Shown here: piece by piece, positions 7,076 to 58,833 of the stretch | Numbering within the stretch: position 1 is the stretch's first letter | How the letters are laid out: each line of letters begins with the position of its first letter | DNA from: Planctomycetota bacterium | Lineage (GTDB): Bacteria > Planctomycetota > Planctomycetia > Pirellulales > Pirellulaceae | Length of the DNA: 64,000 nt | NCBI GenBank assembly: GCA_016872725.1 | Contig: VGZC01000008.1 | Coordinates: 1-64,000 of the forward strand | Reading direction: 5' to 3' | Translations under genes and position numbers: made by a program | The notes under the pieces: model-generated | The model's input: only the letters and a program-made list of their open reading frames with translations | Told to the model about the DNA's origin: nothing | The model's database searches: none

Positions 7076-10006
7076 ATGGCCAAGACAGCGATCGCCAGTT
7101 CGGCCGAGTTGATCGAGTTGTTGGAAAAGAGCCGTCTGCTCGAAGACCAGGCCTTCGACCAAGCGCGCCGCGTGGCGGAAGCCGAGCCCGACGCGGGCGC
7201 AGCCGCGCGGAAACTCGTGGATCTCGGTGTCCTCAGTCCGTGGCAAGCCGACCAATTGCTCGCCGGCCAATTCTCCCTCCGGCTTGGCGACTCCAAATTC
7301 CTGCTGTATGACGAGGTGGGCGAGTGGGAATTCGGCCGATCGTTTCTCGCGGCCGACGGCACGACGGGTGAGCAGGTCGGGTTGAAGCTCTTGTCGAGTC
7401 GCATTGCGGCCGACAAGGCCGTACAAAAGTCGCTGCTCTCGGATCTCGGCAAGGTGTCGAAGATCAGGAACCGAGGGTTCGTCAACCTGCGCGAAGTGGG
7501 CCGAGCGGGTCCGCGGTTCTTTCTCGTCTTGGACTCCCATCCCGCGCGAACGGTCGCCGGCGCGAAGGCAGCCCTCGGCGGACTCGGCAATGCCGCCGCG
7601 ATCCGGTTGCTCGAACGGGCGGCCGGCGCGCTTGGGGAGTTGCATCGGCGCGGATTGGAGCACGCCTGTTTGACGCCCGCGCGGATCGGGTATTCGAGCG
7701 AAGGCGCCGTCTTGATTTCGGATGCCGGATTGCGATGCCTGATTCCGGCGTTGCGCCGTGATCCCGCCGCGCGCGACGCGATCGCGGAATGGGCTCCGCC
7801 TGAAACGTCTCCCCCAGGGTCCGACCCCGCGCGTCGCGACTGGTATTCGCTCGCGCGCATCGTGGGATCCGCGCGAGCGGCCGATTCGATCGGAAACTCG
7901 ACGTCATTGGCGGAGGACGAGGGCGGGGCGGCCGCCGACGCGTGGCGCGAGTCGATCGATTCACCCGAAGCCGATCAGCGGCTCGACGCGATCCTCGCGC
8001 GCATGATGGACGACGCATCGTCCCAATCCGGCGCGTTCGGAGAATCCCGCGGCGGCATCGACGCGGACTTGGGTGAATTGGCGAGTGCCGAGTCGGTCGT
8101 CGCCGCATGCCGCGTTTGGCGTGAGCGGTATTTGGGAGATAGCGAACCACTCGTCGCGGCGGCGGACGACTCGATCGTCGCGTCGATCGCGGACAGCGCG
8201 GCCTTCCCGGCCGTTCGCGCCGACACGCCGTCGAAAACGGACCGTGATGCGGCGACCGTCCGGGAACGGGCCGTTCGTTCGGCTGCGCCGGCGAGCGGCG
8301 GCGACTCGGAAACGCGCGGCGTGGTTATTGAAACCAGGAGAAAGAAGGAGAAGAAGGAAACCGCGGCGCCGACGAAGGAAAAGAAGAAGGGGAAGGCCGA
8401 CCGGGCGACGCGGGAACCAAGCGAGGCTCAGGCATGGCTCGCGGCGCGCCGCCGGAAACGGGCTCGTACCCTTTTCGTCAGCGCGGCGACGATGCTGATT
8501 CTGATTCCGCTCTTGATCACCGCCTACGTGATGCGCGACGCGTGGCGTCCGAATCGTGAGACCGATGCGGAACGTGCGGTGGCGAAACTAACGGCCGCGC
8601 GTCGGTTCGCGGACCAGGCCGACAAGGCGGACGCGCCGTTGCCCGATGTCGGCGCGCCGCTGCCGGAACCGCCTCCCGATTCCGCGCCGAAAGACGCGGC
8701 GCCCGCGGTCAGTCCGCTGGAAAACGCGCGGAGCGCTGTCGCGGGTTCGCCGGGCGCCGAGCTTTCCGGGACCCAGCCCAAGGGCGGCCAGTCCACGGCG
8801 TCGGACCTCGGTCCCGCGCCCGAACCGCAATCGCCCGCGAACGGCTCGCCGGTTTCGGCGCCCGCGCCCGACTCCGTGGCCGCCAAGACGCCGGACCCGG
8901 CGCCCGGGCCCGCGACTTCGAACGATTCCGCGACGGCGGCTCCCACCGTGAATACGCCGCCGAGTGTCCCGCCCGCCGGTTCGGCGTTCCTCAGCCAACT
9001 TCCCGAATCCCTGACACTCCCCAAACGGAAACCCGAGACGGACGCGACCGGGCCCGATGCGCTCGGAGCGATCCCCGTCGACGATCAGGCGGCCTGCATG
9101 ATCGAATTGGTCGGCGGTGATCGTGTTTCGTCGAAAGCCAACGCGTCGATCGTGCTCGAAAACGCCGAAGGCGGAACGGCGCCTCGGAAATGGGACGTTT
9201 TTTCGGTCGCCGGGCCGGGCAGCCGCAAGCCGGTTGGTCGTTTTGCATTGCTGGGCGGCCAATTCACGTTTGAATGGCTCGACGCCGCGCGCGACGACGA
9301 ACTGGCCGGCATGCTCGAGAACTGTTTCCTCCGGTTGCGCGTCGGTGCCGAATCGCGACAAGTCGGCCTGCGCCGGACGATTCGCGTACCCGCGCTCGTT
9401 CTGAATCTCGATCGCGGCGCAACCGCCGGGAAATGGGAGATTCCGAACGGACCCGATCCCGCCGCGTGCCGATTCGAAGTCCTTTCACTCGAAGGCCCCT
9501 TCCCTCCCCATGTCCTCGACCCGTCCGGTTCGATCGAGGCGGATGGCGGCAAGCAATGGGTCTATCTGGGCGCGAATGCGCCGGAACGCGTCATCGTTCT
9601 TCGAGTCGAAAGCGGTTTGCGCCGGACGTTGGCGGTCAACGTGACCTGCCTCATGTCGGAGGGCCAGGAGGCGAACGAGGAATGGATGAAGGACCGCAAT
9701 CGACGTCCGACGAAAGCCAATCGCACGCAACTGATCAAACGCGTGGACGCGATCCTGGCTCAGGCCAAAGCGAAGCGGGACAGTTTTGCCGTGGTCAACG
9801 AGGCCTCCCTCTCGCGCGCCGACAAGGAGCAGTTCCTGCAACAACGCAATCTCGCGCAGCTCGACTTCGACAACGCGCAGACCGCGCGGAAGCGGTTGGA
9901 TCAGGTCGAGAAGTTGAGCCAATCGCTCAATGACCGGGGGAAGGTCCATTTTCGCGTGGTCTTCGAGGCGGAAGGACGATCGATCGAGCTCCTTCGTTCC
10001 GAATAG
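7076..10006 (+). CDS. Membrane-anchored pseudokinase-like protein
   Basis: A 976-residue protein. The N-terminal 75 residues ([14 protein letters not shown]...[13 protein letters not shown]) match the short helical module that precedes the kinase domain in many planctomycete Ser/Thr kinases. The following region aligns in layout with a kinase fold ([20 protein letters not shown], then [18 protein letters not shown], then [11 protein letters not shown], then WAPPE). The catalytic residues are missing, though. The HRD-K-N loop reads HACLTPARI, the metal-binding DFG reads DAG, and the glycine loop is poor. A Lys/Glu-rich linker leads to one transmembrane helix ([20 protein letters not shown], about residue 465-485). 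A Pro/Ala-rich region and a C-terminal domain of beta strands plus a coiled coil follow. It is probably a non-catalytic sensor or scaffold. The start at 7076 is chosen because [12 protein letters not shown] begins the conserved module. Confidence 0.75.
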
Positions 10007-45440: not shown

Positions 45441-46115
45441 ATGAACCAAGAGCTGCTTTCGGGTGATCGTGAAGTCCTCGACGCGATTCGGAAACGCCGT
45501 GCGATGACCGTTGCCGATCTGGCCAAACAGCTCGGCGTCACCGGGACGGCCGTTCGCCAGCGGCTCAATCGGTTGCTCGCCCAGGACTGTATTCGGCGCG
45601 AGTCATGCCGCAGCGGGCGAGGGCGTCCGACGCACCGCTATCTGCTGACGGCCAAAGGGCGCCGGTCCGCCGGAGCGAATTTTTCGGATCTGGCCATGGC
45701 CTTGTGGCAAGAGTTCCGATCGATTCGCGATCCGGGTGTGCGTTCCGGACTGATTGGACGCGTGTCCCGACGATTGGCGTCGATTTATTCGGGCAAGGTG
45801 CCCGCAGGTTCGCTGAACGAGAAGATGGACTCGTTGGTCGAACTCATGGCCGAGCGGCAGATCCCATTCGAGGTGGATCGAGGGGCCGAGCTTCCCGTAT
45901 TGCACGCGATGGCCTGCCCCTATCCCGAACTCGCCGAATTGGACCGCGGTGTTTGCGCGATGGAACGGGAGTTCGTTTCGGAAGTGCTCGGCGAGGAAGT
46001 TCGATTGGGCCAGTGCCGTTTGGACGGCGATCAGTGTTGTTCGTTCGAGCTCGGGCCCCGCCGCGCGCGGGGTGGCGGCCCGTCGATGGCGGCTCCGAGT
46101 AACGAGGGCGCGTGA
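45441..46115 (+). CDS. sufR: SufR-like iron-sulfur-sensing transcriptional repressor
   Basis: A 224-residue regulator. The N-terminal winged helix-turn-helix (EVLDAIRKRRAMTVADLAKQLGVTGTAVRQRLNRLLAQ) and RPTHRYLLTAKG are of the DeoR/SufR kind. The C-terminal half has cysteines at about 159, 172, 192, 199 and 200 (ACPYPELAELDRGVC, GQCRLDGDQCC), matching the arrangement that holds a 4Fe-4S cluster in SufR. In bacteria where it was studied, the holo form represses the suf operon and cluster loss derepresses it. Position as first gene of the suf operon, behind a palindrome-bearing promoter, supports autoregulation. Purine-rich AGGAG and AGGAC sites precede the start. Confidence 0.85.
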   Translation: MNQELLSGDREVLDAIRKRRAMTVADLAKQLGVTGTAVRQRLNRLLAQDCIRRESCRSGRGRPTHRYLLTAKGRRSAGANFSDLAMALWQEFRSIRDPGVRSGLIGRVSRRLASIYSGKVPAGSLNEKMDSLVELMAERQIPFEVDRGAELPVLHAMACPYPELAELDRGVCAMEREFVSEVLGEEVRLGQCRLDGDQCCSFELGPRRARGGGPSMAAPSNEGA

Positions 46116-46364
46116 AGGTGAGGCCATGACGGGAAGCCGACGGCGCAATGCGAGCACCGGAGCATGGCGGTCGACGGGACGACCCGTGCTCGAAAGCGGG
46201 GGCAGCCTGTCGGTCTCGGGGAAGGCTGATATACTCGTGACTCGGTTTTTGGGGGATCTTCGAGCCTGAATTCGGAAAGGCGAGACGGTTCCGGCGGTCG
46301 GGCGGCAAGGCGAACACAGCGGAATCCAGACACGTTTCCGGGGAAAACGAGTGGCGAGCGGGAC

Positions 46365-47000
46365 ATGAACACGACGATGCCGTGGATTGAAGGTCGGATT
46401 GAAGAGAACGTGGTGACGACGACGGTCGAGCAGGCGATCAATTGGGCTCGCCAATCGAGTGTCTGGCCGATGACGTTCGGGTTGGCGTGCTGCGCCATCG
46501 AGATGATGGCGGCGGGGGCGAGTCGATACGACATCGACCGATTCGGAGCGGGCGCTTTCCGCGCGACGCCTCGGCAGGCCGATCTGATGATCGTCGCGGG
46601 AACCGTGACGTACAAGATGGCGAGCCGTGTCCGGCGGCTTTACAACATGATGCCCGAACCGAAATTCGTCATCGCGATGGGCGCGTGCACAGTGGGCGGT
46701 GGGCCCTATTTCAAGTGGGGTTACCATGTCGTGAAAGGGGTCGACTTGGTCGTTCCCGTCGACGTGTACGTCCCCGGTTGTCCGCCTCGCCCCGAGGCGC
46801 TCCTCGAAGGCCTCATGCGCATCCAGGACAAGATCCGCGGTCATCGGATCGCGAAGCAAAAGTCGGCCGACGGAACCGGGTTCCTGCGCCGCGGTGTGAA
46901 AGTCGACGACGAGCTGCCGGTTCCTCACCACACGGGCTATGTGTCCGCGTTTCGGGACAACGAGGAACCCGTGACCGACCACCAGAAAATCACCGGTTGA
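46365..47000 (+). CDS. nuoB: NADH-quinone oxidoreductase subunit B (orphan nuoB in suf operon)
   Basis: A 211-residue homologue of the complex I subunit that binds the N2 cluster. All four expected ligands are present: the tandem pair in [10 protein letters not shown] (42-43), GACTVGGGP (108) and [12 protein letters not shown] (139). [35 protein letters not shown] is also typical. A C-terminal tail of about 45 residues ([21 protein letters not shown]...) extends beyond the core. No other nuo gene is nearby; it lies between sufR (249 bp upstream) and sufC (about 50 bp downstream). It could supply a complex I assembled from genes elsewhere, with its own 4Fe-4S demand tied to Suf control. Confidence 0.93.
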
Positions 47001-47050
47001 GCCAAACCGACGCGCGACGGACTCGATCCGTTCGCGCGGAGGAGGATGGC

Positions 47051-47917
47051 GTGTGGAGCGCGGAATTGAAAGCCATGGAACGAGTGGAAACGCGAATGGC
47101 CGAGACCCTGAGCATCTCCGAGTTGCACGTGTCGGTCGGCGGAAAGCCGATCCTGCGGGGTGTGAATCTGCGGATCCGCCGCGGTGAAACCCACGCGCTC
47201 ATGGGTCCGAACGGCTCGGGCAAGAGCACGCTCGGACTCGCCGTCATGGGGCATCCCAATTACGAGGTCACGCGCGGCGAGATCCGCATCGACGGCGTGA
47301 TCCTGAACGACAAGCCGCCCGATGAGCGGGCGAGGCTTGGGCTCTTCATGGCTTTTCAGCGACCGGTCGCCATTCCGGGAGTCCGGATGGCCGATTTCCT
47401 CCGGCACGCGGCGACCAACACGCGCAATCCCGATCGCAAGGAAGGCGAGGAGTTGATGCCGATGCGCGAGTTCCGCGTCGAGTTGCGATCCAAGATGGAA
47501 CAGCTCCGCATGGATCCCGAGTTCGCTCGGCGCTATGTGAACGACGGCTTCTCCGGCGGCGAAATGAAACGGGCCGAGATCCTGCAACTCGCCATGCTCC
47601 AGCCCCGATTCGCGATCCTCGATGAAACCGACAGCGGGCTCGACGCCGACGCGGTCCGCCTCGCCAGTCAGAGCATCGCCGAGATCGGCCGCGAGAAGAT
47701 GGGTTTGCTCATCATCACCCACCACGACAAGCTCCTCGTCCACAATCCGCCCGACTTCACCCATGCGATGCTCGGCGGACGCATCGTCGAAACGGGAGGC
47801 AAGGACCTGGCCGCCGAATTGCACGAGTCGGGCTATGACCGGATCCGGCGGGCATATCCCGAGGACGACGCTGAAAATCAGGCGATGGTGGAACAGGAGA
47901 CGGCCGCCGTTTCCTGA
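47051..47917 (+). CDS. sufC: Fe-S assembly ATPase SufC
   Basis: The ABC-type ATPase of the SufBCD scaffold. Motifs in order are Walker [10 protein letters not shown], the Q-loop [13 protein letters not shown], the signature FSGGEMKR, Walker [13 protein letters not shown] and the switch His in IITHHDKLL. The start is uncertain. The GTG at 47051 has a perfect GGAGG five bases upstream and gives 288 residues. ATGs at 47075 and 47096 have only GGAA-type sites, but the latter begins at the usual SufC N-terminus ([15 protein letters not shown]). sufB follows on the same strand after about 120 bp. Confidence 0.95.
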
Positions 47918-48035
47918 TCGACGGAAATACCGATTGGAATCCGGACGCCACATCGCGCGCCGGATACGGAAGGACACCTTGGACGAGCCCGACCAGCAAA
48001 CGACACCCACCCACCAGCCGGCAAACGGTGAATCG

Positions 48036-49442
48036 ATGGCCACCGAAGCTTCGACGACCGAATTTATCGGAACGATCAACAAGTACGATTTTCGAACCGA
48101 GTCCGAGGGCGTGTTCAAGGCGCGGAAGGGACTGGACGCGGAGATCGTCGAGCAGATATCGCGGATGAAGGGCGAGCCCGAATGGATGCGCCGGTTCCGG
48201 CTCGACGCGTTCCGCATCTTCGAGCAAAAACCGCTTCCGGACTGGGGCGGGGACATCGCGCTCGATTTCCAGGACATCTACTACTACCTCAAGCCGACCG
48301 ATCATCAAAGCCGCAGCTGGGACGACGTTCCCAAGGAAATCAAGGATACGTTCGACCGGCTCGGGATTCCCGAGGCCGAGCGCAAGTTCCTTGCCGGAGT
48401 GAAGGCGCAATTCGAGAGCGAGGTCGTCTACGGTTCGCTCAAGGAGGACCTCGCCCGCAAGGGGGTCGTGTTCACGGACACCGACACGGCCGTGCGCGAA
48501 CATCCCGATCTGGTGCGCGAGTATTTTGGGACGATCATCCCGCCGCACGACAACAAGTTCGCCGCGCTCAACTCGGCCGTCTGGTCGGGCGGTTCATTCA
48601 TCTATGTTCCGCCGGGTGTGAAGATCGACTTCCCGCTCCAGGCCTATTTCCGCATCAACGCGCAGAACATGGGCCAGTTCGAGCGGACCCTGATCATCTG
48701 CGACGAAGGCGCCGAACTGCACTATGTCGAAGGGTGCACCGCCCCGATGTACTCGACCGAGAGCCTGCATTCGGCGGTCGTCGAGATCATCGTCAAACGC
48801 GGCGGCCGGTGCCGGTACACGACGATCCAGAACTGGGCCAACAACATCTACAACCTCGTCACCAAACGGGCCATGGCGTACCGCGACGCGACCATGGAGT
48901 GGATCGACGGAAACCTCGGCAGCCGGCTCACCATGAAATACCCGGCGGTCTACATGATGGAGCCCGGCGCGCGGGGAGAAATCCTCTCGATCGCGTTCGC
49001 CGGGCCGGGCCAGCATCAGGACGCCGGAGCGAAGCTCGTCCACTGCGCTCCGAACACCACCGGACAGATCGTCTCCAAGTCGATCAGCCGCAACGGCGGC
49101 CGAAGCAGCTACCGGGGACTCGTGCGGGTCGAACGCGGAGCCAAGGGCGCCAAGTGCAACGTCGTCTGCGACGCGCTCATCCTCGACCCGGAGAGCCGGA
49201 GCGATACGTATCCGTACATCGAGGTCGCCGAACAGGAGGCTTCGGTCGGCCATGAGGCGAGCGTTTCGAGGATCGGCGAAGAGCAGTTGTTTTATCTGAC
49301 CAGCCGAGGCCTGACCGAGGCCGAGGCGCGTACGACGATCGTCAACGGTTTCATCGAACCGCTCGTGCGCGAACTTCCCATGGAATACGCCGTCGAGATG
49401 AACCGCCTGATCCAGCTTCAAATGGAAGGTTCGGTTGGATGA
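48036..49442 (+). CDS. sufB: Fe-S cluster scaffold protein SufB
   Basis: The 468-residue scaffold on which Fe-S clusters are built. Family blocks are [120 protein letters not shown], and [20 protein letters not shown] near the end. The Cys in VEGCTAP and others in the core are in place. The ATG at 48036 follows GGTGA. A TTG at 47979 with GGAAGG upstream would add 19 residues and cannot be excluded. The stop overlaps the sufD start as ATGA. Confidence 0.97.
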
Positions 49443-50764
49443 CCGGAATGAACAGCCTGTCATCAAGGCCGATCGCGTGGAACGATGCCGGTTTCGCGGA
49501 GATGGCCGATCGGATCCGCGAGCCCGACTGGGCGCTCGACGTCCGACGCGCGGCGTGGCGATCGTTTCAAGAACTGCCTTGGCCGTCGGCCCGCTCCGAG
49601 GGATGGAACCGCACCGATATCCGCGCTTTCCGTCTCGAAAAGTTCCGAGCGACGCTCGACGCCCCCGAACCCGTCGCATGCCCGGAGGGGTTGCTGCGCG
49701 AGGGAGTCGATCTCGCGGGCGACATCGTGTCGATCAACGGACTTCGGAATTCGGGACGATTGGATCCTCGCTGGGAAAAACGAGGTGTCCTCTTCACGAC
49801 CCTGGATCGACTCACGCGCCCGGACGCGGATCGCATGCGGCCGCACGTCGAGACGCATCGCATCGATCCGGCCGTCGACCGTTTCGCCGCGTTGCAGGCG
49901 GCGTTCGGCGGTCCGACCCGCGTGTTGCTGGTTCCGCGCGGATGTTCGGTCGAGCAACCGCTCCTGGCGATGTCGGTTGTGACGCCCGGCGGGGTCGACC
50001 TCGGTCGCACGGTGATCGTGCTCGAAGACGGCGCCGAGGCGACCGTGCTGCTGGAAACGGCGAGTCTCGCCGAGGACGACGAGGGCCTGCACAGCGGGCT
50101 GACCGACGTCGTGCTCGGCGCAGGCGCGAACCTGCGGCTCGTCCATCTGCAGAATTGGGGAGATCGCGTCTGGCATTTCGCCCACCAGAAAGCCGTGGTG
50201 GGACGTGGAGCCCGCCTTCAGTGGACCGTCGGAACGCTCGGCGCCCGGCTGGCCAAGGTCAATCAACATGTCGACCTTGTGGGACCGGGCGCGACGTGCG
50301 AGGTGAACGGCGTGCTGTTCACGGAAGGAACGCAGCATCTGGCCTACCATACGGAGCAGCGGCACGCCGCGCCGTCCTGCCGAAGCGATTTCCTTTACAA
50401 AGCGGCCCTCCAGGACCGTTCGCGCACCGTCTGGCGCGGCATGATCCGAGTCGAGCGGAACGCGCGGAAGTCGGACGGATACCAGCGCATCGACAATCTG
50501 TTGCTCTCGCCCGAGGCCCGCGCCGATTCGATCCCCGGCCTCGAGATCGAAGCGGACGACGTGCGGTGTACCCATGGCTCGACAACCTCGCGCTTCGATG
50601 ACGAACCGATCTTTTACGCGCAGTGCCGCGGATTGACGCGCAATGAGGCGATCCGTACCTATGTCGTCGGTTTCTTCCAACAGGTTCTCGATCGGATCAC
50701 CGTCGACAGCGTGCGCGAGGCGCTCGGAAGGGCCATCGCGCGGCGCGTGCGCGAAACCGAATAG
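49439..50764 (+). CDS. sufD: Fe-S cluster assembly protein SufD
   Basis: A 441-residue partner of SufB and SufC. The beta-helix core is recognisable from [108 protein letters not shown] and IENL-type [35 protein letters not shown], which carries the conserved His. The last stretch, [25 protein letters not shown], is standard. It overlaps sufB by 4 bp, implying balanced synthesis. Confidence 0.95.
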
Positions 50765-50824
50765 GCCGACCCGATCGATGGACCGAACAGACCCGAAGAG
50801 TGCCTTGACGCGGGGATCGAGTCG

Positions 50825-51148
50825 ATGCGAAGTCGTGATGGGCTGGTTCGCGTCGCCGGACTCGGGGAAATCCCGGATCCCGGGCGGAGGACGATCGAAC
50901 TGGGCGACCACATCGCCGTGCTCTTCCACGTGGGAGGCGAGTACTATTGCATCGACGACGTGTGCACGCACGATGGCGGACCGCTCGGACATGGTTCCCG
51001 CGATGGCTTCGCGATCGTCTGCCCGCGCCACGGAGCCAAGTTCGACATTCGGACCGGCAAGGCGCTCACGATGCCCGCGACCGTCGATACGCCGACCCAT
51101 GAAGTCGAGGTGACCGAGGACGGCGTGTTTGTCCGTTGCGAGGCGTAG
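50825..51148 (+). CDS. Rieske 2Fe-2S ferredoxin-like protein
   Basis: A 107-residue stand-alone Rieske protein of the NirD / ferredoxin-subunit type. The cluster ligands are in CTHDGGPL and CPRHGAKFDIRTG, that is C-x-H and C-x2-H, 16-17 residues apart. It lacks a membrane anchor and an oxygenase domain. In many bacteria a protein of this kind sits in suf operons, probably as an electron carrier for cluster assembly. Here it lies between sufD (60 bp) and the DUF59 gene (58 bp). I chose the ATG at 50825, whose ribosome site is weak. Confidence 0.92.
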   Translation: MRSRDGLVRVAGLGEIPDPGRRTIELGDHIAVLFHVGGEYYCIDDVCTHDGGPLGHGSRDGFAIVCPRHGAKFDIRTGKALTMPATVDTPTHEVEVTEDGVFVRCEA

Positions 51149-51206
51149 CGATCGACACTCGTTTCCGTTCCCCGTACGGCGTCCGCGAGACGTAGGCGAG
51201 AGACCC

Positions 51207-51524
51207 ATGGCGATCACCGAGGAAATCATCCGGGAAGAACTCAAGACGGTCGTGGATCCCGAGCTGTTCGTCAATATCGTCGACTTGGGCATGGTCCACG
51301 CGGTGGCGATCGAGCCGGTAGACGGGTCGAAGAGCGCGGTTCGAATCGAGATGACGTTGACCAGTCCGATGTGTCCGGCGGGTCCGCAATTGATTTCGAA
51401 CTGCAAGCGGGTCCTTGGCCGGCGCGAGGACGTGGCATCGGTCGAGGTCAAGATCGTGCTCGATCCGCCGTGGACGCCCGAGCGCATGACCGACGACGCC
51501 CGCGACCAGCTCGGCATCTTTTGA
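51207..51524 (+). CDS. DUF59 / MIP18-family Fe-S maturation factor (SufT-like)
   Basis: A 105-residue protein of the metal-sulfur cluster biosynthesis family. Family features are REELKTVVDPELFVNIVDLGMVHAV, EMTLTSPMCPAGPQLISNCKRVL with the reactive Cys in SPMCP, and the C-terminal VKIVLDPPWTPERMTDDARDQLG. It is short and has no Mrp ATPase part. Related SufT proteins help deliver Fe-S clusters to target enzymes. It is the last gene of the suf operon; the convergent kinase gene ends 67 bp beyond. Confidence 0.93.
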   Translation: MAITEEIIREELKTVVDPELFVNIVDLGMVHAVAIEPVDGSKSAVRIEMTLTSPMCPAGPQLISNCKRVLGRREDVASVEVKIVLDPPWTPERMTDDARDQLGIF

Positions 51525-51591: not shown

Positions 51592-52203
51592 TCAGCGTGC
51601 GCGTCCGAAAACCCGCTCGCGGCCGGTGCGCAGATTGACGCAGCGCAGTCGCGTGGCGCGCGCGAGGGTATGGGGAAGGAACTCGTCGACGTATCCGCGC
51701 CGCGCGAGGTCGTCGAGCGTTTCATGCGACGCGGCGTCGGCCGACTTGAGCAGGATCAGTTCGTCGGCGCCGATCCGGTCCGCCAGCACGGCCGCGATCG
51801 AATCGCTCGTCACCGACCAGTCCTCGGGAATCGGCGCTCCCGACGGCGTTCGAGGCCGCGTCTGAAGGAACTGCTCGACCGAATACGCGAACAGCTTGGG
51901 CGGAACGGCCCTCAGTCTCCGCTCAAGGTCCTCCTGCCGATCGCAGAATTCCGACTCGGGAAACAGCATGTGGATCAAGCGGGCCGTCGCGTCAAGGAGA
52001 CGGATGCAGAGCCAGTGCACGTCGTTCGGTTCGAGCGCGTGGCGGCGGTCAAGCCGCCGCACGGCGTCGACGAACGGGCCTCCACCCGCGATCAAGACCG
52101 TCGCGCGGAGCGGCTGTGACAGAAACCAGTCACGAAACGCGGGAACGAGCCCGGGGTAGTCGATCAGGCTTCCGCCCAATTTCACGACGCGCGGTCCGCT
52201 CAT
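51592..52203 (-). CDS. Amino-acid-kinase-family protein, MfnE-like (methanofuran pathway)
   Basis: A 203-residue protein of the aspartate/uridylate kinase fold: N-terminal VVKLGGSLID, glycine-rich VLIAGGGPFVDAVRRLD, and a nucleotide-binding DSIAAVLADRIGADELILLKSADA. Its small size and the HALEPNDVHWLCIRLLDATARLI segment fit the archaeal-type kinases related to MfnE, which phosphorylates the furan intermediate of methanofuran, better than aspartate kinase. The identification rests mainly on context. The start codon overlaps the preceding MfnF-like gene by 4 bp (ATGA), and an ATP-grasp ligase of the same pathway type lies before that. Housekeeping UMP kinase or glutamate 5-kinase are alternatives I consider less likely. 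Confidence 0.75.
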   Translation of the reverse strand: MSGPRVVKLGGSLIDYPGLVPAFRDWFLSQPLRATVLIAGGGPFVDAVRRLDRRHALEPNDVHWLCIRLLDATARLIHMLFPESEFCDRQEDLERRLRAVPPKLFAYSVEQFLQTRPRTPSGAPIPEDWSVTSDSIAAVLADRIGADELILLKSADAASHETLDDLARRGYVDEFLPHTLARATRLRCVNLRTGRERVFGRAR

Positions 52204-53276
52204 CCGAGTTCCCCATCGGAAGCGGGCGCGGCGTCCGACGCCGGACGCGGACCGCGAGCCGCTCCACGCTCGACGCTCTCCCGCGCGAGGACGGCGAGCG
52301 CGTAGGCGGGCGCGGCGCGGGACGCGGCGGGGGCGAGTTTCTGGCCGAGCGGAACAATGGCCGCGTCGGAATGGTTGCGTTCGGCGACGCGCCGCGCGAG
52401 GAACTCCCCCTGCCCCGCCACGATGATCGATCGCGGACGCTCCCCCATCGACTCGACCACACGCGCGAGCCCCGACTCGATACGCTTGGTCTGGATCCGA
52501 ACGACGCTCTGCGCGATCAGCACGGCGTCCCGATGATGGAAGGCTCCGTCCGGACTGCCGATCATGCGTCCGATGCGGACGCGGGCGGCGGCCCGAGTCG
52601 CCGGCCGATGATCGGCCGTGTGCCGCGATCCGGAGTCCTCGGGAAGATCGCCGGTCAGCAGGTAGACGTCCTGCGTCGACGCGAAGAACTCGCGCATGAT
52701 CGGACAGGTCTTGCCGCGATAGGGAGCCGTCGCGATCAGCGCGCACACCGGTGTCCGCTCGACGCCCGTGTAGACCAACTCGCCGCGCAGCAGCCGATCC
52801 GTATCCGACCGGCTCTCCGTCGCGATCGCGCCGTCCCGCAACGGGATGATGTCGGTCGTGGTCGAACCGACGTCGATCACCAGCGCGGGGCCGTCGGACG
52901 CGAAACGCGCCGCGAAGGTCGCGAGCGCGTGCCAGTTGGATGCGGCGGCGAGCAGCGGCGCGCGCCGCGCGGCGGCGGGTGCGACCAACCGCCCGTCGAC
53001 CAGATGGACCCGCGTGTGGCGGTGGTCGGCCGCTTGATCGACGGCGTCCAGGATCGCCCGAACACCGTCGGTTCGCGTCGCGAAGCAGTCGGCCAACTCC
53101 CCCGTCATCGTGATCGCGAGATGATCGGACCGCGGACTCTCCGCGAGCATCGTGCGGAGTTCGCCCGCGAGTCGCTCGGGATGCTCCCACAAACGGAACG
53201 AACGCGACGTGACGAAACGATCCCCGTCCGACGCCTTGAGGTTGGCGCCGCCGATATCGAACGCGAGCCATTTCAT
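52200..53276 (-). CDS. Hydantoinase/oxoprolinase-like ASKHA protein of the H4MPT-linked C1 family, MfnF-like
   Basis: A 358-residue protein with an ASKHA-type nucleotide-binding fold. It has MKWLAFDIGGANLKASDGD at the start, MTGELADCFATRTDGVRAI, the second phosphate loop ALVIDVGSTTTDIIPLRDG, and IIVAGQGEFLARRV. This is the pattern of the family annotated as H4MPT-linked C1-transfer pathway protein. Its archaeal member MfnF joins the furan and the glutamyl-tyramine parts of methanofuran. Conserved Cys in ADCF and TCPIM may matter for chemistry. It lies between the ATP-grasp gene (74 bp upstream) and the MfnE-like kinase (4-bp overlap). Confidence 0.82.
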   Translation of the reverse strand: MKWLAFDIGGANLKASDGDRFVTSRSFRLWEHPERLAGELRTMLAESPRSDHLAITMTGELADCFATRTDGVRAILDAVDQAADHRHTRVHLVDGRLVAPAAARRAPLLAAASNWHALATFAARFASDGPALVIDVGSTTTDIIPLRDGAIATESRSDTDRLLRGELVYTGVERTPVCALIATAPYRGKTCPIMREFFASTQDVYLLTGDLPEDSGSRHTADHRPATRAAARVRIGRMIGSPDGAFHHRDAVLIAQSVVRIQTKRIESGLARVVESMGERPRSIIVAGQGEFLARRVAERNHSDAAIVPLGQKLAPAASRAAPAYALAVLARESVERGAARGPRPASDAAPASDGELG

Positions 53277-53350
53277 GGCACGGCGACTCCGATGAGCACG
53301 TCGACACGGATCCCGTTCGAGTTCGATTCCCCCGCCGGTCCCGGCTTGCC

Positions 53351-54394
53351 TCAACCGTCCGCGTCCCGCACCGTGCCGTCCGCGTCGAACTCGATGCGGC
53401 ATTGCCGCCAACGGAGGTCGACATCCAGCCCGTTCGCGGCGGCCACGCACGCCGACGCGAGGTTGTCCCGGCACGCCCGGCGAAGCCCGATGTAGGAGGT
53501 TGTCAGACGCGGGTTGACTTCAATGACGGTATCCAGTGTACCGCGTTCGTCGGTCGAGAGGATCAGGTCGACACCGATGTAGCCCCGGATTTCGGGAAAT
53601 GCGCGGGCGGCGTCGAGGGCCAACGCGCGGGCCCGCGCCGCGTGCCGATCGGTGAGCGGAAGGGAACCGCCGACATAGGTGAGGCCGTCGGGGCCGGCGA
53701 GCCTCTGGGTGCACGGCGGCAGCGCGACGTATCGACGGCGACCGCACAACACGGCGACACTCGCCGCCAACCCCTCGCACCGCTCTTCGATGCGCCACCC
53801 GCCGCGTGTCACCGAATCCCGCGGCAAGGTCCATCCGTGCCACGGGGCGACGCCCGCCGATCCCGCGCCGTCGCGGGGTTTCACGATCGAAGGACCCGAC
53901 CAGGGGATCGCGGGCGTCTCACCGCGCGCCACGGCCACGCCGCTCGGAACGCGGATCCCGCGGGCGGCAAGGTGTTCGGCCGTCGCCTGTTTGTCCTGCG
54001 CGATCCGGACGCACGCGGAACCTGGGCTGAGAAGCCGTTTTCCGGCCGATTCCACAAGCTCGGTCAAGGCGAGCAGGATTCCGTGGATTTCGGGGGCGAT
54101 GAGCCAAACGGCATCGGACGTTCGGCACCCTTCGAGAAACGCCGTTCGGTTCCGAGCATCCGAGCCCTCGTCGCGAACCGACCGCGTCACGAAACCGGCG
54201 CGCGTCAGATCCTCGGCGACGGCGTCGTGCATCGCCGCGCCTTCGGGTCGCAGGGCGGCGACAAGGTCCGCGTCGCGCAGAACGCCCCACGCTCCGCCCG
54301 ATACGGCGTACTCGTAGAGCAGGATCGAGCGGATGTTCGCGTCGTTCGAACGATCGGCCCGATCCGACGCGCGTTCCGTTCGCGCTAGTTCCAC
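53351..54394 (-). CDS. ATP-grasp ligase, MfnD-like
   Basis: An ATP-grasp protein of about 347 residues. ATP-grasp features are QDKQATAEHLAARGIRVPSG, the Lys-bearing SIVKPRDGAGSAGV, RGYIGVDLILSTDERGTLDTVIEVNPRLTTSYIGLR with the metal-binding Glu/Asn, and an N-terminal YEYAVSGG segment. ENPR(L)TTSY(I/V)GL-type ends are characteristic of the group that includes MfnD, the tyramine-glutamate ligase of methanofuran synthesis. No ATG is available. GTG codons at 54394-54400 overlap the end of the DUF1598 gene, so its translation is probably coupled to it. Followed by the MfnF- and MfnE-like genes. Confidence 0.8.
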   Translation of the reverse strand: MELARTERASDRADRSNDANIRSILLYEYAVSGGAWGVLRDADLVAALRPEGAAMHDAVAEDLTRAGFVTRSVRDEGSDARNRTAFLEGCRTSDAVWLIAPEIHGILLALTELVESAGKRLLSPGSACVRIAQDKQATAEHLAARGIRVPSGVAVARGETPAIPWSGPSIVKPRDGAGSAGVAPWHGWTLPRDSVTRGGWRIEERCEGLAASVAVLCGRRRYVALPPCTQRLAGPDGLTYVGGSLPLTDRHAARARALALDAARAFPEIRGYIGVDLILSTDERGTLDTVIEVNPRLTTSYIGLRRACRDNLASACVAAANGLDVDLRWRQCRIEFDADGTVRDADG

Positions 54395-55764
54395 CACCAC
54401 GTCGCGCCGCCGGATCGCTTCATGTGCGATGCGAGTTCGGCGACGGCGGGATCGGGCTTGGCGGCATCGGCGACCTGCCACGACTCGATCTGGACGCCGC
54501 CCGCCGTGGCGACCAGCCAACCGCCGCGCGTGGGAGCGAAGCTGCAAACCGTGTCGACCGAACGGGGCGAGTGCCACGCTTCGGCGGCCAGCGGGCTCGA
54601 CGTGTCGAACAGGATCGGCAGCGGGCATTCGGCCATCTCGCGGAGCCGGTACATGTCGATGATCGCGGCGACCACGGACATGTCCATCACATTGCGGAGT
54701 TCGCCGAAAACCGGCATCTTGAGGCTCAGCGCATCGTATTGCTCGGTCATCGCGTCGGCCCATTTCCGGGCGAGTTGGCTTGTGCGTCCCGATTGGGCCT
54801 CGGAGGAGCCGTCGGCCCGCGTCCGATTCTCCTCGGTCAGCGTCTTGACGCCGGCGCCGCGCACCTTCCAGATCGTGCCTTCCTCATTGCGTGAAACGCC
54901 CTCGTAGTTGCAGGCGAGCCACCAGCGCGGATTCGGCATCGGGCCGGAAGCGCTCGCGAGCATGTCGATGTAGCTCGGCAATCCCGAAACGGGTGACCGC
55001 ACGACGCCCATGGCGAGCCGTTTCATGTGGAAGTCGGCGGCGAGCATGACGCGGGCGAAATGCGTGGACGGCGATACGCCGGTGATCGTCACGGTCTGCG
55101 GCCCCATCGCCTCCTTGAGCGCGGGGCCGAGTCGGTTCGGCGCGACCGACGTGCGCGAACGCCGCTGTTGATCAAGGACCGATTGCGCCTGGCGAACGCC
55201 TTCGGGCGTCGGGTCGATCGAGCACGAAATGCCGACTTCGCGAGCCGCGTTCGCCGCGCGCAGGGCGACGATCAAGTCGTCAAGTCGGAGCACGGGCCGC
55301 CCGCTCGTCGAACCCACGACGTTGCCCGTCTCGTCGATCCGCCAACCTTCGGCGGGGCCCGCCAGAATGATGTCGTGATTCTCGCGGTCGACCAGAACGT
55401 ATTCGATCCGTTGAAGGCCGCCAAGGAATTGCACTTCGTCGGGCAACCGGCCGAACTCATTCGTCTGCGCGTCCTGGATGGCCGCTTCGAGTCCCCGGAG
55501 CGAGACCTTGCGCATCGGCACGGGCGCCGCCAAGGCGGACGGCGCTTCCTTCACCGCCTTGCGCAAATCGTCAAGGAACTGTTTCGTCGTATCGATTTCC
55601 GGTTCGCGGACGATGCCCGATGCGTCGATCGATACACCTCCGACCGAACCACCGCCCCGGAGGACCTGGAACGCGCCTTCGAGGAGTCCGCTCAGCGGCG
55701 CCATCATCAACGCGGCCGCGCCGAGCGCCACGGCGACCCGAGACCAGCGGAAACTCAACTGCAT
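54385..55764 (-). CDS. Exported DUF1598 domain protein
   Basis: A 459-residue protein of a planctomycete family (DUF1598). A signal peptide (VAVALGAAALMMAPLSGLL) follows the ATG at 55764, which has AAGGAG six bases upstream. Family-type blocks are MRKVSLRGLEAAI, EVQFLGGLQRIEYVLVDRENHDIILAGPAEGW, RPVLRLDDLIVALRAA, ISCSIDPTPEGVR, and AADFHMKRLAMG. It ends in WWWN, overlapping the GTG start of the ATP-grasp gene. The function is unknown; being exported, it is unlikely to be an enzyme of the cofactor pathway. It has a leader of about 200 nt with tandem repeats. Confidence 0.82.
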   Translation of the reverse strand: MQLSFRWSRVAVALGAAALMMAPLSGLLEGAFQVLRGGGSVGGVSIDASGIVREPEIDTTKQFLDDLRKAVKEAPSALAAPVPMRKVSLRGLEAAIQDAQTNEFGRLPDEVQFLGGLQRIEYVLVDRENHDIILAGPAEGWRIDETGNVVGSTSGRPVLRLDDLIVALRAANAAREVGISCSIDPTPEGVRQAQSVLDQQRRSRTSVAPNRLGPALKEAMGPQTVTITGVSPSTHFARVMLAADFHMKRLAMGVVRSPVSGLPSYIDMLASASGPMPNPRWWLACNYEGVSRNEEGTIWKVRGAGVKTLTEENRTRADGSSEAQSGRTSQLARKWADAMTEQYDALSLKMPVFGELRNVMDMSVVAAIIDMYRLREMAECPLPILFDTSSPLAAEAWHSPRSVDTVCSFAPTRGGWLVATAGGVQIESWQVADAAKPDPAVAELASHMKRSGGATWWWN

Positions 55765-56088: not shown

Positions 56089-58083
56089 ATGCTGGCCTAT
56101 CTGGTTATCCGCGAAGGGTCGAAATGGACCGACGTGTTCCGTCTGGTCCCGGGTCGGTCCGTGACCATCGGGAGGGCGGCGACCAACCAGATCGTGATCA
56201 AGGACGATCGGTGCAGCCGGAACCACGCCGAGGTGTTTCAGGTCCAGGGGCGGTGGGTTCTTCGGGATCTGGACAGCCGAAACGGGACGGTCATCGGCGG
56301 GACGCGCGTGCAGGGCGACCATCCGTTGACGGCGGGCGACGTCTTGCGGATCGCCAATTGCCAATTAGCGTTCGTCCATGACATTTCGAAGGCGTTTGTG
56401 GACGGCCCGGGCGCTCCGACGGTTGGTGAGGAGACGGTATCGGAGGCGAATCCGCGCCCGTTCGAGACCGAGCTGATCGAGCCCACGACGATCACCCACC
56501 GGCGGCATCAGACCCGTTTGTTGCGGCCGGGGGACGATGACACGGTGGCCTTGCCGTCACTCGGAAGGGCCGCGGCGCGGCTTTGCCGGGTCGCATACGG
56601 AATGGCGGGGCGTTCCGACGTCGAATCGCTCGCCGACTGTGCGCTCGAAGGCCTGCTCGAATCGGCCAATCTGGATGCCGGAGCGATCCTCGTTCGATCG
56701 CGGGACACGCGTCCGGTCACAACCGCCAAGCAGCTTGAGATTGTCGGCTCGCGATCCAAAGGCGACGTCGCGTATCGCCGGGTCTCGGATTTCCTGGCGG
56801 CGACCGTCCTGCGCGAAGGCGAAGCGGTCCTCGCGCGCAACGTCGCCGACGACAGCGTGCTCGGCGGACGGGACAGCCGAGGCATCATCTGCGCGTCGGG
56901 CGTGATCTGCGCGCCGATCCGTCACGGGAAGGAGATCCTCGGCCTCGTGCACCTGTACAGCACGGCGGCCGAGCGGATGCCCGACCCGGACGATCTCGAA
57001 TTCACGCTGGCCGTCGCCGACAACCTCGGCCTCGCGCTCGATTCGGTCGGGCGAAGGCGCGAACTTTCCGAGGATCTTTCGCACAAGCGCGAGGAGATCG
57101 CCGAGCTTCGGCATTTGCTCGGCGCGGAATGCGAGATGATCGGGAGCAGCGCGGCGCTGCGCGAGGCGCAGCGCGACGTCGCGCGCGCCGCGCCGACCCG
57201 GGCCACCGTGCTCATTCGCGGTGAAAGCGGAGTCGGCAAGGAACTGGTGGCGCGCGCGATCCACTTCGCCGGTCCGCGCAAGAAGGGACCGTTCGTTTGC
57301 TTCAACTGCGCCGCGCTCACCGAAACGCTGCTCGAAAGCGAGCTGTTCGGCCACGAGCGGGGCGCGTTCACCGGCGCGACCGAGCGGAAGATCGGCAAGT
57401 TCGAGGCGGCCGACCGCGGTACGTTGATGCTCGACGAGATCGGCGAGATGAGCCCGTCGATCCAGGCCAAGTTCCTCAGGGTCCTCGAAGGACATCCGTT
57501 CGAACGCGTCGGAGGAAGTGCGCCGATCCAAGCCGACGTGCGGGTCATCGCCGCGACGAACCGCGATCTCGAAGCGGCGGTCGCCGATGGCCAGTTCCGC
57601 CGCGATCTTTACTTTCGGCTCCATGTCGTCGAAATCGCCGTTCCTCCGCTGCGGAGGCGAGGCGATGACATCGTCGAACTGGCCCACCACTTCCTCAAGC
57701 GGTTCAATACGGAAACCGGACGCAAGATCCGCGGTTTCACGGCCGACGCGGTCGACCACATGCGGCGATACCGATGGCCTGGCAATATCCGCGAACTCAA
57801 GAACGCGATCGAACGGGCGGTCGTCTTGTCCGGCGGCGATGAGATCGGCGTCGCCGATCTGCCCTTTTCGCACCTGGCAACGCCGGGCGACACGAACGGC
57901 CCCGAGCGGTCGCCGGACGCCTACCAGCCGTTGTCGCTCGCGGACGTCGAACGCCGGCATATCCATGAAACGCTCGCGGCGACGCACTGGAACAAGAGCC
58001 GAACCGCCGCGATCCTCGGCATCGAGCGGTCAACCCTCGATCGCAAGATCCGCCGCTACAAACTGGCCCCGAAGCGCGCGTAA
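56089..58083 (+). CDS. FHA-GAF-AAA+ sigma-54-dependent transcriptional activator
   Basis: A 664-residue regulator. Residues 1-100 form an FHA phosphothreonine-binding domain ([39 protein letters not shown]). About 150-320 is a GAF-type domain ([34 protein letters not shown]). The AAA+ part follows with Walker [10 protein letters not shown], the sigma-54-contacting GAFTGA, Walker [10 protein letters not shown] and the arginine finger region [14 protein letters not shown]. The last 60 residues are a Fis-type helix-turn-helix ([21 protein letters not shown]). The FHA domain suggests that a Ser/Thr kinase signal is read out by binding, replacing the usual response-regulator domain. AAGGA lies upstream of the ATG. 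Targets are not evident. Confidence 0.95.
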
Positions 58084-58113: not shown

Positions 58114-58833
58114 ATGCGCGTCTCCGTGATCATCCCGGCGCTGAACGAGTCGGACCGGATCGGAGCGGCGATCGACAGCGCGAGGGCGGCTCGCTGCGAC
58201 GAGGTCCTTGTCGCGGACGGCGGAAGCATCGACGGCACGCGGGAGCTCGCCGCGCGGCACGGAGCCCAGGTGATCGAGGCGCCTCGGGGGCGGGCGTTCC
58301 AGCAGAACGCCGCGTCGCGCGTCGCGATCGGCGATGTGCTCCTGTTTCTCCACGCCGACAATCGGCTCGGCGGCGCGTGCGCGAGCCAGATCATCGACGC
58401 GTTCACCGCCGATTCGATCCGCGTGTGCGGCGCGTTCCGGCAACGGATCGACGCGCCCGAACTCGGGTTCCGCATCGTGGAATGGGGGAACGCGTTCCGC
58501 GCGGGACGGCTCGGGCTCCCCTACGGCGATCAGGCGCTCTTCTTCCGCCGCGAGGCGTTCGAGCGGTTCGGCCGGTTTCCCGAGACCCCGTTTCTGGAGG
58601 ACTTCATCCTGATGCGCCGCGTTCGGCGCGCCGCGCGACCCCTGCTCCTACCCGGTCCGATCCACGTCGACGCGCGCCGCTGGAAGCGCCGGGGCATCGT
58701 CGCGCAAGTTGTGAGGAACTGGACGATCCTCGGCGCCTACGCGATCGGCGTTCCACCCGAACGCCTCGCGCGGTGGTATCCCCGCCACGATCGAGACGCG
58801 TCCGCTCGCCGGGCGCCGCGCAGTGAAGCTTGA
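58114..58833 (+). CDS. TIGR04283-type family 2 glycosyltransferase
   Basis: A 239-residue GT2 enzyme. Features are VSVIIPALNESDRIGAAI, DEVLVADGGSIDGT, GRAFQQNAASRVAIGDVLLFLHADNRL (DXD-like), GLPYGDQALFFRREAFERFGRF and FLEDFILMRRVRR. The run RGRAFQQN...LLFLHADN is characteristic of the TIGR04283 group, found in gene sets for arsenosugars and other small glycosides. No partner genes of such a pathway are visible here. It follows the activator gene by 30 bp and may share its transcript. Confidence 0.88.
   Translation: MRVSVIIPALNESDRIGAAIDSARAARCDEVLVADGGSIDGTRELAARHGAQVIEAPRGRAFQQNAASRVAIGDVLLFLHADNRLGGACASQIIDAFTADSIRVCGAFRQRIDAPELGFRIVEWGNAFRAGRLGLPYGDQALFFRREAFERFGRFPETPFLEDFILMRRVRRAARPLLLPGPIHVDARRWKRRGIVAQVVRNWTILGAYAIGVPPERLARWYPRHDRDASARRAPRSEA

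Follow-up and report, generated by a model that had tools for sequence, protein, structure and literature searches.

A candidate gene trio for a methanofuran- or methylofuran-type coenzyme in a planctomycete of the family Pirellulaceae

The window analyzed here, a stretch of 64,000 nucleotides at the start of contig VGZC01000008.1 (assembly GCA_016872725.1), comes from a planctomycete of the family Pirellulaceae. On its minus strand, at 51592-54394, lie three adjoining genes whose products are, in order, an ATP-grasp protein, a TIGR03123 protein, and an amino-acid kinase. The arrangement had been described in an earlier note on this DNA and was found as described, as was the 4-bp overlap of the last two genes (ATGA, 52200-52203). 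The families are the same three, MfnD, MfnF, and MfnE, that serve methanofuran biosynthesis in archaea, and they have also been proposed for methylofuran in the available text of PMC8141765; the gene set itself is not new, having been described in methanogenic archaea and in methanol-consuming bacteria. Gene content, family kinship at the levels of sequence and fold, co-occurrence, and gene order together make it very probable that the trio is responsible for the core of a methanofuran/methylofuran coenzyme, the formyl carrier in the one-carbon (C1) pathway linked to tetrahydromethanopterin (H4MPT).

The three proteins and their families

The MfnD-like ATP-grasp ligase (53351-54394, minus strand) is read from a GTG start, with three GTG candidates at 54400, 54397, and 54394. 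Homologues, with starts as called in this analysis, begin some 20 residues downstream, and the N-terminal extension scores low in the predicted local distance difference test (pLDDT), against 91.1 for the predicted structure as a whole. A profile search gave MfnD, NF040722, as the top model (58.2 bits, 8.8e-16; runner-up, 5.3e-06), and in Pfam ATP-grasp_3 (1.5e-21) and preATP-grasp_3 both matched. Entry 3df7 from Archaeoglobus fulgidus, which we take to be an MfnD relative, is the best match in the PDB to the sequence profile (E = 9.6e-30) and to the modeled fold (VIA Z 33.0, root mean square deviation [rmsd] 2.5, 278 residues; next row, Z 27.3). When compared with nine proteins of the Azospirillum H4MPT island, the ligase is closest to the ATP-grasp protein encoded beside mfnF, at 33.7% identity. 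The earlier note had this protein end in EVNPRLTTSYIGL; that sequence is present, towards the C-terminus of the 53351-54394 product.

After a spacing of 74 bp follows the gene for the MfnF-like protein (52200-53276, minus strand, ATG start), which exceeds the curated TIGR03123 cut-off (267.6 versus 244.1 bits, E = 1.5e-79). Its second model is MfnF, NF040623, at 175.4 bits, and Pfam places it in Hydantoinase_A (2.3e-19). A planctomycete MfnF profile run against the PDB with E up to 0.1 retrieved a single distinct sequence, the archaeal 3c0b/3cet (5.8e-78), and identity to the MfnF of the Azospirillum island is 39.4%.

The MfnE-like protein (51592-52203, minus strand) has the amino-acid-kinase fold (Pfam AA_kinase, 4.4e-10), and its top model is MfnE, NF040622 (35.7 bits, 7e-09; runner-up, 0.0013). 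Its predicted structure (pLDDT 95.1) is matched best by 7qrh, the MfnE of Methanococcus vannielii (VIA Z 22.0, rmsd 2.4, 185 aligned), ahead of an aspartate kinase at Z 19.6, and 7qrh is also first in the profile search of the PDB (E = 2.8e-18; next, 1.8e-05). By sequence and by fold, the nearest solved relative is MfnE and not a UMP, acetylglutamate, or aspartate kinase. The assignment of the three proteins to the MfnD, MfnF, and MfnE families is thus borne out by the TIGR03123 score, by NF040722 and NF040622 as top models, and by agreeing folds. Unrelated housekeeping kinases or ligases, which the earlier note had named as the matches that would speak against it, did not emerge as best matches; these were methanofuran-biosynthesis families or archaeal orthologues, and model scores, PDB profiles, and fold matches speak against a housekeeping identity.

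Companion genes, co-occurrence, and points of doubt

A nearly complete methylofuran-type pathway can be placed in this planctomycete order. In a profile search of the genome (5.24 Mb, 100 contigs, 95.8% complete), FhcD (contig C41), Fae (C40), Mch (C29), and FhcA/FwdA and FwdC (both C37) were over their cut-offs, and MfnB (PF04476; C23:51364-52017) scored 185.6 bits against a cut-off of 22.4. An FwdD-like gene on C37 scored 71 bits, below its cut-off of 175. On C40, fae is flanked on one side by a gene for an Mpt_N-type methylene-H4MPT dehydrogenase and on the other by a MyfA-like ATP-grasp gene, and a MyfB/MptN-like ligase is encoded on C33. Among the same nine Azospirillum proteins, the MyfA-like protein is closest to the ATP-grasp protein encoded between mtd and mch (30.0% identity) and the MyfB-like protein to the ligase encoded after mch (37.4%). 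By hand count, 46 of the 54 genomes with mch have a MyfB/MptN-like gene no more than 1 kb away from it, which is not so in this genome; the gene kept beside myfB (cluster C2) looks, on reading its sequence, like an AMP-binding ligase. A genome without fhc and other H4MPT genes, which the earlier note regarded as fatal to its proposal, is not what we find, since fhcD, the fwdD, -B, -A, and -C genes, mch, fae, and a methylene-H4MPT dehydrogenase gene are all present. Its premise that planctomycetes have H4MPT-linked genes also holds, as the available text of PMC5020050 cites such H4MPT/methanofuran-linked genes from 2004. That text states that fwdD is absent from Planctomycetes, contrary to which this genome carries an FwdD-like gene; planctomycete strain P2 likewise has fmdD, according to the part of PMC4807772 available.

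Comparison with proteobacterial methylofuran/H4MPT islands shows shared gene order as well as shared content. In the annotated Azospirillum plasmid island, genes resembling mfnD and mfnF are adjacent, and fhc, mtd, mch, and fae belong to the same island. A plasmid of Caballeronia carries the run mfnD-mfnF-mfnE, and next to it comes a gene that, on a reading of its sequence, looks like mfnB. The order D-F (Azospirillum) or D-F-E (Caballeronia) and the MyfA/MyfB-like genes are common to these islands and the planctomycete, with orf1 corresponding to mfnD, orf9 to mfnF, orf21 to mfnE, orf22 to mfnB, orfY to myfA, and orf5 to myfB. The names Orf1, Orf5, Orf7, and OrfY for the Azospirillum genes, and the labels mfnB and Orf17 in Caballeronia, are ones that we assume to apply. 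In contrast to the islands, the planctomycete pathway is spread over six more contigs, C23, C29, C33, C37, C40, and C41. The planctomycete trio is contiguous. Among 30 loci from relatives, 18 have D-F-E contiguous on one strand, as do 38 of the 71 named loci in which both flanks leave enough room; the named set consists of the best 80 of 577 loci and has contigs in common with the 30-locus set. In one relative (G048, L054:7334-9412) MfnD and MfnF occupy a single 692-aa reading frame, which may be a true fusion or may reflect a stop codon lost in a draft genome.

Across 60 genomes, this one included, TIGR03123 was present in 56, FhcD in 57, MfnB in 52, Fae in 56, FhcA over its cut-off in 54, and Mch in 54. 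FhcD occurs in every one of the 56 MfnF-bearing genomes, and the 3 genomes without it are all among the 4 without MfnF. Genomes G030, G052, and G053 are without all six of MfnF, FhcD, MfnB, Fae, FhcA (over cut-off), and Mch. Joint absence with MfnF gave Fisher p values of 1.2e-4 for FhcD, 3.1e-5 for FhcA, 4.6e-4 for Fae, 2.2e-3 for Mch, and 6.1e-3 for MfnB. Genome G029 (L055-L058) has Fae, Mch (304.6 bits), a weak FhcD (242 bits), and a weak MfnB (76.1 bits), and is without MfnF and without FhcA over the cut-off; a decayed or altered pathway is possible there. In many relatives FhcD occurs a second time, at about 277-329 bits, and so does Fae, as a weaker homologue at about 112-142 bits.

Several observations weigh against placing the trio in this pathway. 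All three proteins fall far under the methanogen equivalog cut-offs, with 58.2 of 400 bits for MfnD (NF040722, MfnD_Meth), 175.4 of 520 for MfnF (NF040623), and 35.7 of 300 for MfnE (NF040622). MfnA (TIGR03812) is over its cut-off in none of the 60 genomes, and the best match in this one reaches 63.3 of 299.4 bits. Contiguity of the trio is missing in 12 of the 30 relative loci and 33 of the 71 named loci. Finally, the joint-absence statistics depend on the 3 to 4 genomes with losses, in assemblies of uneven quality. The shortfall from the equivalogs carries little weight, because the Azospirillum island proteins, a control that covers MfnD and MfnF, fall short as well (67.8 and 107.7 bits, respectively); the unmet cut-offs are nevertheless why we name the proteins MfnD-, MfnE-, and MfnF-like and do not call them members of the equivalogs. 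As to MfnA, decarboxylase homologues under the cut-off do exist and a different decarboxylase is possible; of the genes that the earlier note had proposed to look for elsewhere in the genome, mfnB was found and mfnA was not found over its cut-off.

The putative partner enzyme and the likely product

Formylmethanofuran dehydrogenase genes in the order fwdD-fwdB-fwdA-fwdC occupy positions 6333-10860 of L052, on contig C37 of this genome (G000), and fwdB has an in-frame TGA (7347-7349) where its catalytic site is encoded. The protein exceeds the family cut-off when read through this TGA, the only one, which lies at the catalytic position (SHTSL-U-HGPTE), and among the matches listed it is the genome's one FwdB, in the TGA form. 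At least 11 genomes, this one included, gave an FwdB match that scores high and contains a single TGA; among the matches listed, none in the family has an internal TAA or TAG, and one further TGA occurs in a 42.5-bit FwdB-family match in G024. At the catalytic motif, 30 loci divide into 11 with TGA, 18 with Cys, and one, L101, with no motif match, which was left out of both the selenocysteine (Sec) and the Cys sets. All 11 Sec-FwdB genomes have SelB over its cut-off and score 62 bits or more for tRNA-Sec, which is also true of 21 of the 49 others; this genome scores 67.2 bits for tRNA-Sec (gathering threshold, 47) and 316 bits for SelB (cut-off, 242.25).

RNA folding gives a divided picture. 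In 10 of the 11 Sec genes the minimum-energy fold contains a 6- to 7-bp hairpin starting at nucleotide 22-23 from the TGA, and hairpins of at least 6 bp in 4 of the 18 Cys genes lie elsewhere (nucleotides 10, 20, 32, and 32). The stem of this genome's fwdB that resembles a selenocysteine insertion sequence (SECIS) is interrupted by a mismatch, and a different fold is the one of minimum energy, which counts against the Sec reading. Folding z scores against mononucleotide shuffles averaged -0.94 for the 11 Sec genes and 0.35 for the 18 Cys genes, and stood at 0.29 for this gene. The protein reads as a putative selenocysteine formylmethanofuran dehydrogenase and not as a hydrolase, which makes it the unusual element among the pathway genes of this genome. 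An Fhc-type FhcB would be without a catalytic Cys or Sec, and in Azospirillum and Caballeronia Gly-Leu and Ser-Leu replace the Sec-His of the planctomycete FwdB, which instead has its in-frame TGA at the HGP site. A Sec-FmdB in an fmdD-fmdB-fmdA-fmdC operon was described in 2016 for planctomycete strain P2, in the available part of PMC4807772, with the same D-B-A-C order and TGA/Sec active site as here; by that account, which does not take up synthesis of the cofactor, P2 carries a Cys form as well as the Sec form, in contrast to the single TGA form listed for our genome.

Judged by homology, the MfnD-like ligase would couple glutamate with tyramine or tyrosine, and the MfnE-like kinase would convert aminomethyl-furanmethanol phosphate, presumably supplied by MfnB (encoded elsewhere) and a putative transaminase, to the diphosphate. 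The MfnF-like protein, again by homology, would join the furan, through the phenolic oxygen, to glutamyl-tyramine or glutamyl-tyrosine. The MyfA- and MyfB-like ligases probably add glutamates to yield a product of the methylofuran type, which is marked by a polyglutamate chain some ten or more residues long, and the coenzyme would then act as the formyl carrier for FhcD and the FwdDBAC complex in a pathway of Fae, Mtd, Mch, FhcD, and Fwd. With no MfnA over the cut-off, the core could be either tyrosine or tyramine. A core built on tyrosine, like that of Methylorubrum extorquens, with the MfnD-like enzyme taking tyrosine in place of tyramine, has somewhat less than an even chance in our estimate. 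The missing MfnA over cut-off in all 60 genomes, 56 of them MfnF bearing, fits it, but decarboxylase homologues do exist beneath the cut-off, and the available text of PMC8141765 reports three producers of tyramine-type methylofuran (MYFR-tyramine) that are also without an MfnA homologue and describes MfnD as missing in most tyrosine-type producers.

The earlier note had proposed that the block makes a methanofuran analogue, and a cofactor pathway of that kind is supported; given its MyfA-like and MyfB-like ligases, the genome more probably specifies a product of methylofuran type than the plain methanofuran. Plain archaeal-type methanofuran, whose core is tyramine and whose gamma-glutamate chain is short, serving a formylmethanofuran dehydrogenase of archaeal type, would accord with the MfnD-like protein, the FwdD-like gene, and an FwdB that has cysteines at its N-terminal end as well as a TGA (Sec) site. 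Those two ligases, the recurrent placement of the MyfB/MptN-like gene near mch, and the lack of an MfnA over the cut-off make it unlikely. That the trio serves some other pathway, such as one for a peptide-like natural product, with a likeness confined to fold, would suit the low equivalog scores but is highly improbable, as the closest structures are those of MfnE or of archaeal proteins, with a clear lead over generic members of the families, all 56 MfnF genomes also have FhcD, and proteobacterial H4MPT islands carry the same genes.

More tentatively, the trio and the MyfA/MyfB ligases might form part of a hybrid C1 system, in which a polyglutamylated methylofuran has as its partner a Sec/Fe-S FwdDBAC dehydrogenase and not the Fhc hydrolase, an idea that we rate as worth entertaining and short of even. 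In that case redox chemistry would carry the formyl group of the coenzyme on to CO2 or in the reverse direction. This raises the question of whether a bacterial methylofuran can serve a selenium-dependent Fwd rather than Fhc.

Gene neighborhood

Next to the trio, on the plus strand at 47051-51524, lie suf genes (sufC, sufB, sufD, a Rieske-type ferredoxin gene, and a SufT-like gene), identified from NCBIfam and Pfam matches and from synteny. SufC, SufB, and SufD are over their NCBIfam cut-offs, and Rieske and FeS_assembly_P domains occur in the neighbors; the interval 45441-51524 also holds a SufR-like regulator gene (51.7 of 178.8 bits) and a NuoB-like gene. Within 4 kb of mfnD/F, 13 of the 30 relative loci and 34 of 64 named loci encode a homologue of SufT or SufD, and the recurrent order in relatives is sufC-sufB-sufD-Rieske-SufT-mfnD-mfnF-mfnE. 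If the coenzyme does serve a Sec/Fe-S dehydrogenase, this conserved order could reflect Fe-S dependence. Lacipirellula limnantheis I41, presumably in culture, carries the suf-mfnDFE block (L173, a chromosome record), and the cofactor could therefore be measured directly.

On the other side lies a DUF1598 gene (54385-55731, minus strand; stop codon at 54387-54385; PF07643, 2.4e-24), the end of which overlaps the mfnD-like start. The earlier note saw mfnD as coupled to this upstream gene; the overlap is real, and the coupling looks derived. DUF1598 was seen in 22 of 76 named loci with a called MfnF, past MfnF and on the other strand in 19 of these, upstream in 3, a distribution that makes it probably no pathway gene; it stands immediately upstream of mfnD in 1 of the 76, and in the window. 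The overlap is probably a by-product of a local inversion and not an ancestral arrangement, because in the window the trio sits between SufT and DUF1598 in the reverse of its usual orientation in relatives. The same inversion occurs in one relative (L044 and L159, on one contig), with three extra genes in between. A record titled Candidatus Kuenenia stuttgartiensis (L223, CAMDFJ010000016.1) has mfnDFE-DUF1598-regulator in the Pirellulales-type order, and its title may be wrong. In the window, a regulator gene at 56089-58083, to which we provisionally apply the label FHA, matched sigma-54 activator families, and a glycosyltransferase at 58114-58833 is over the cut-off of TIGR04283, a family named for arsenosugar biosynthesis.

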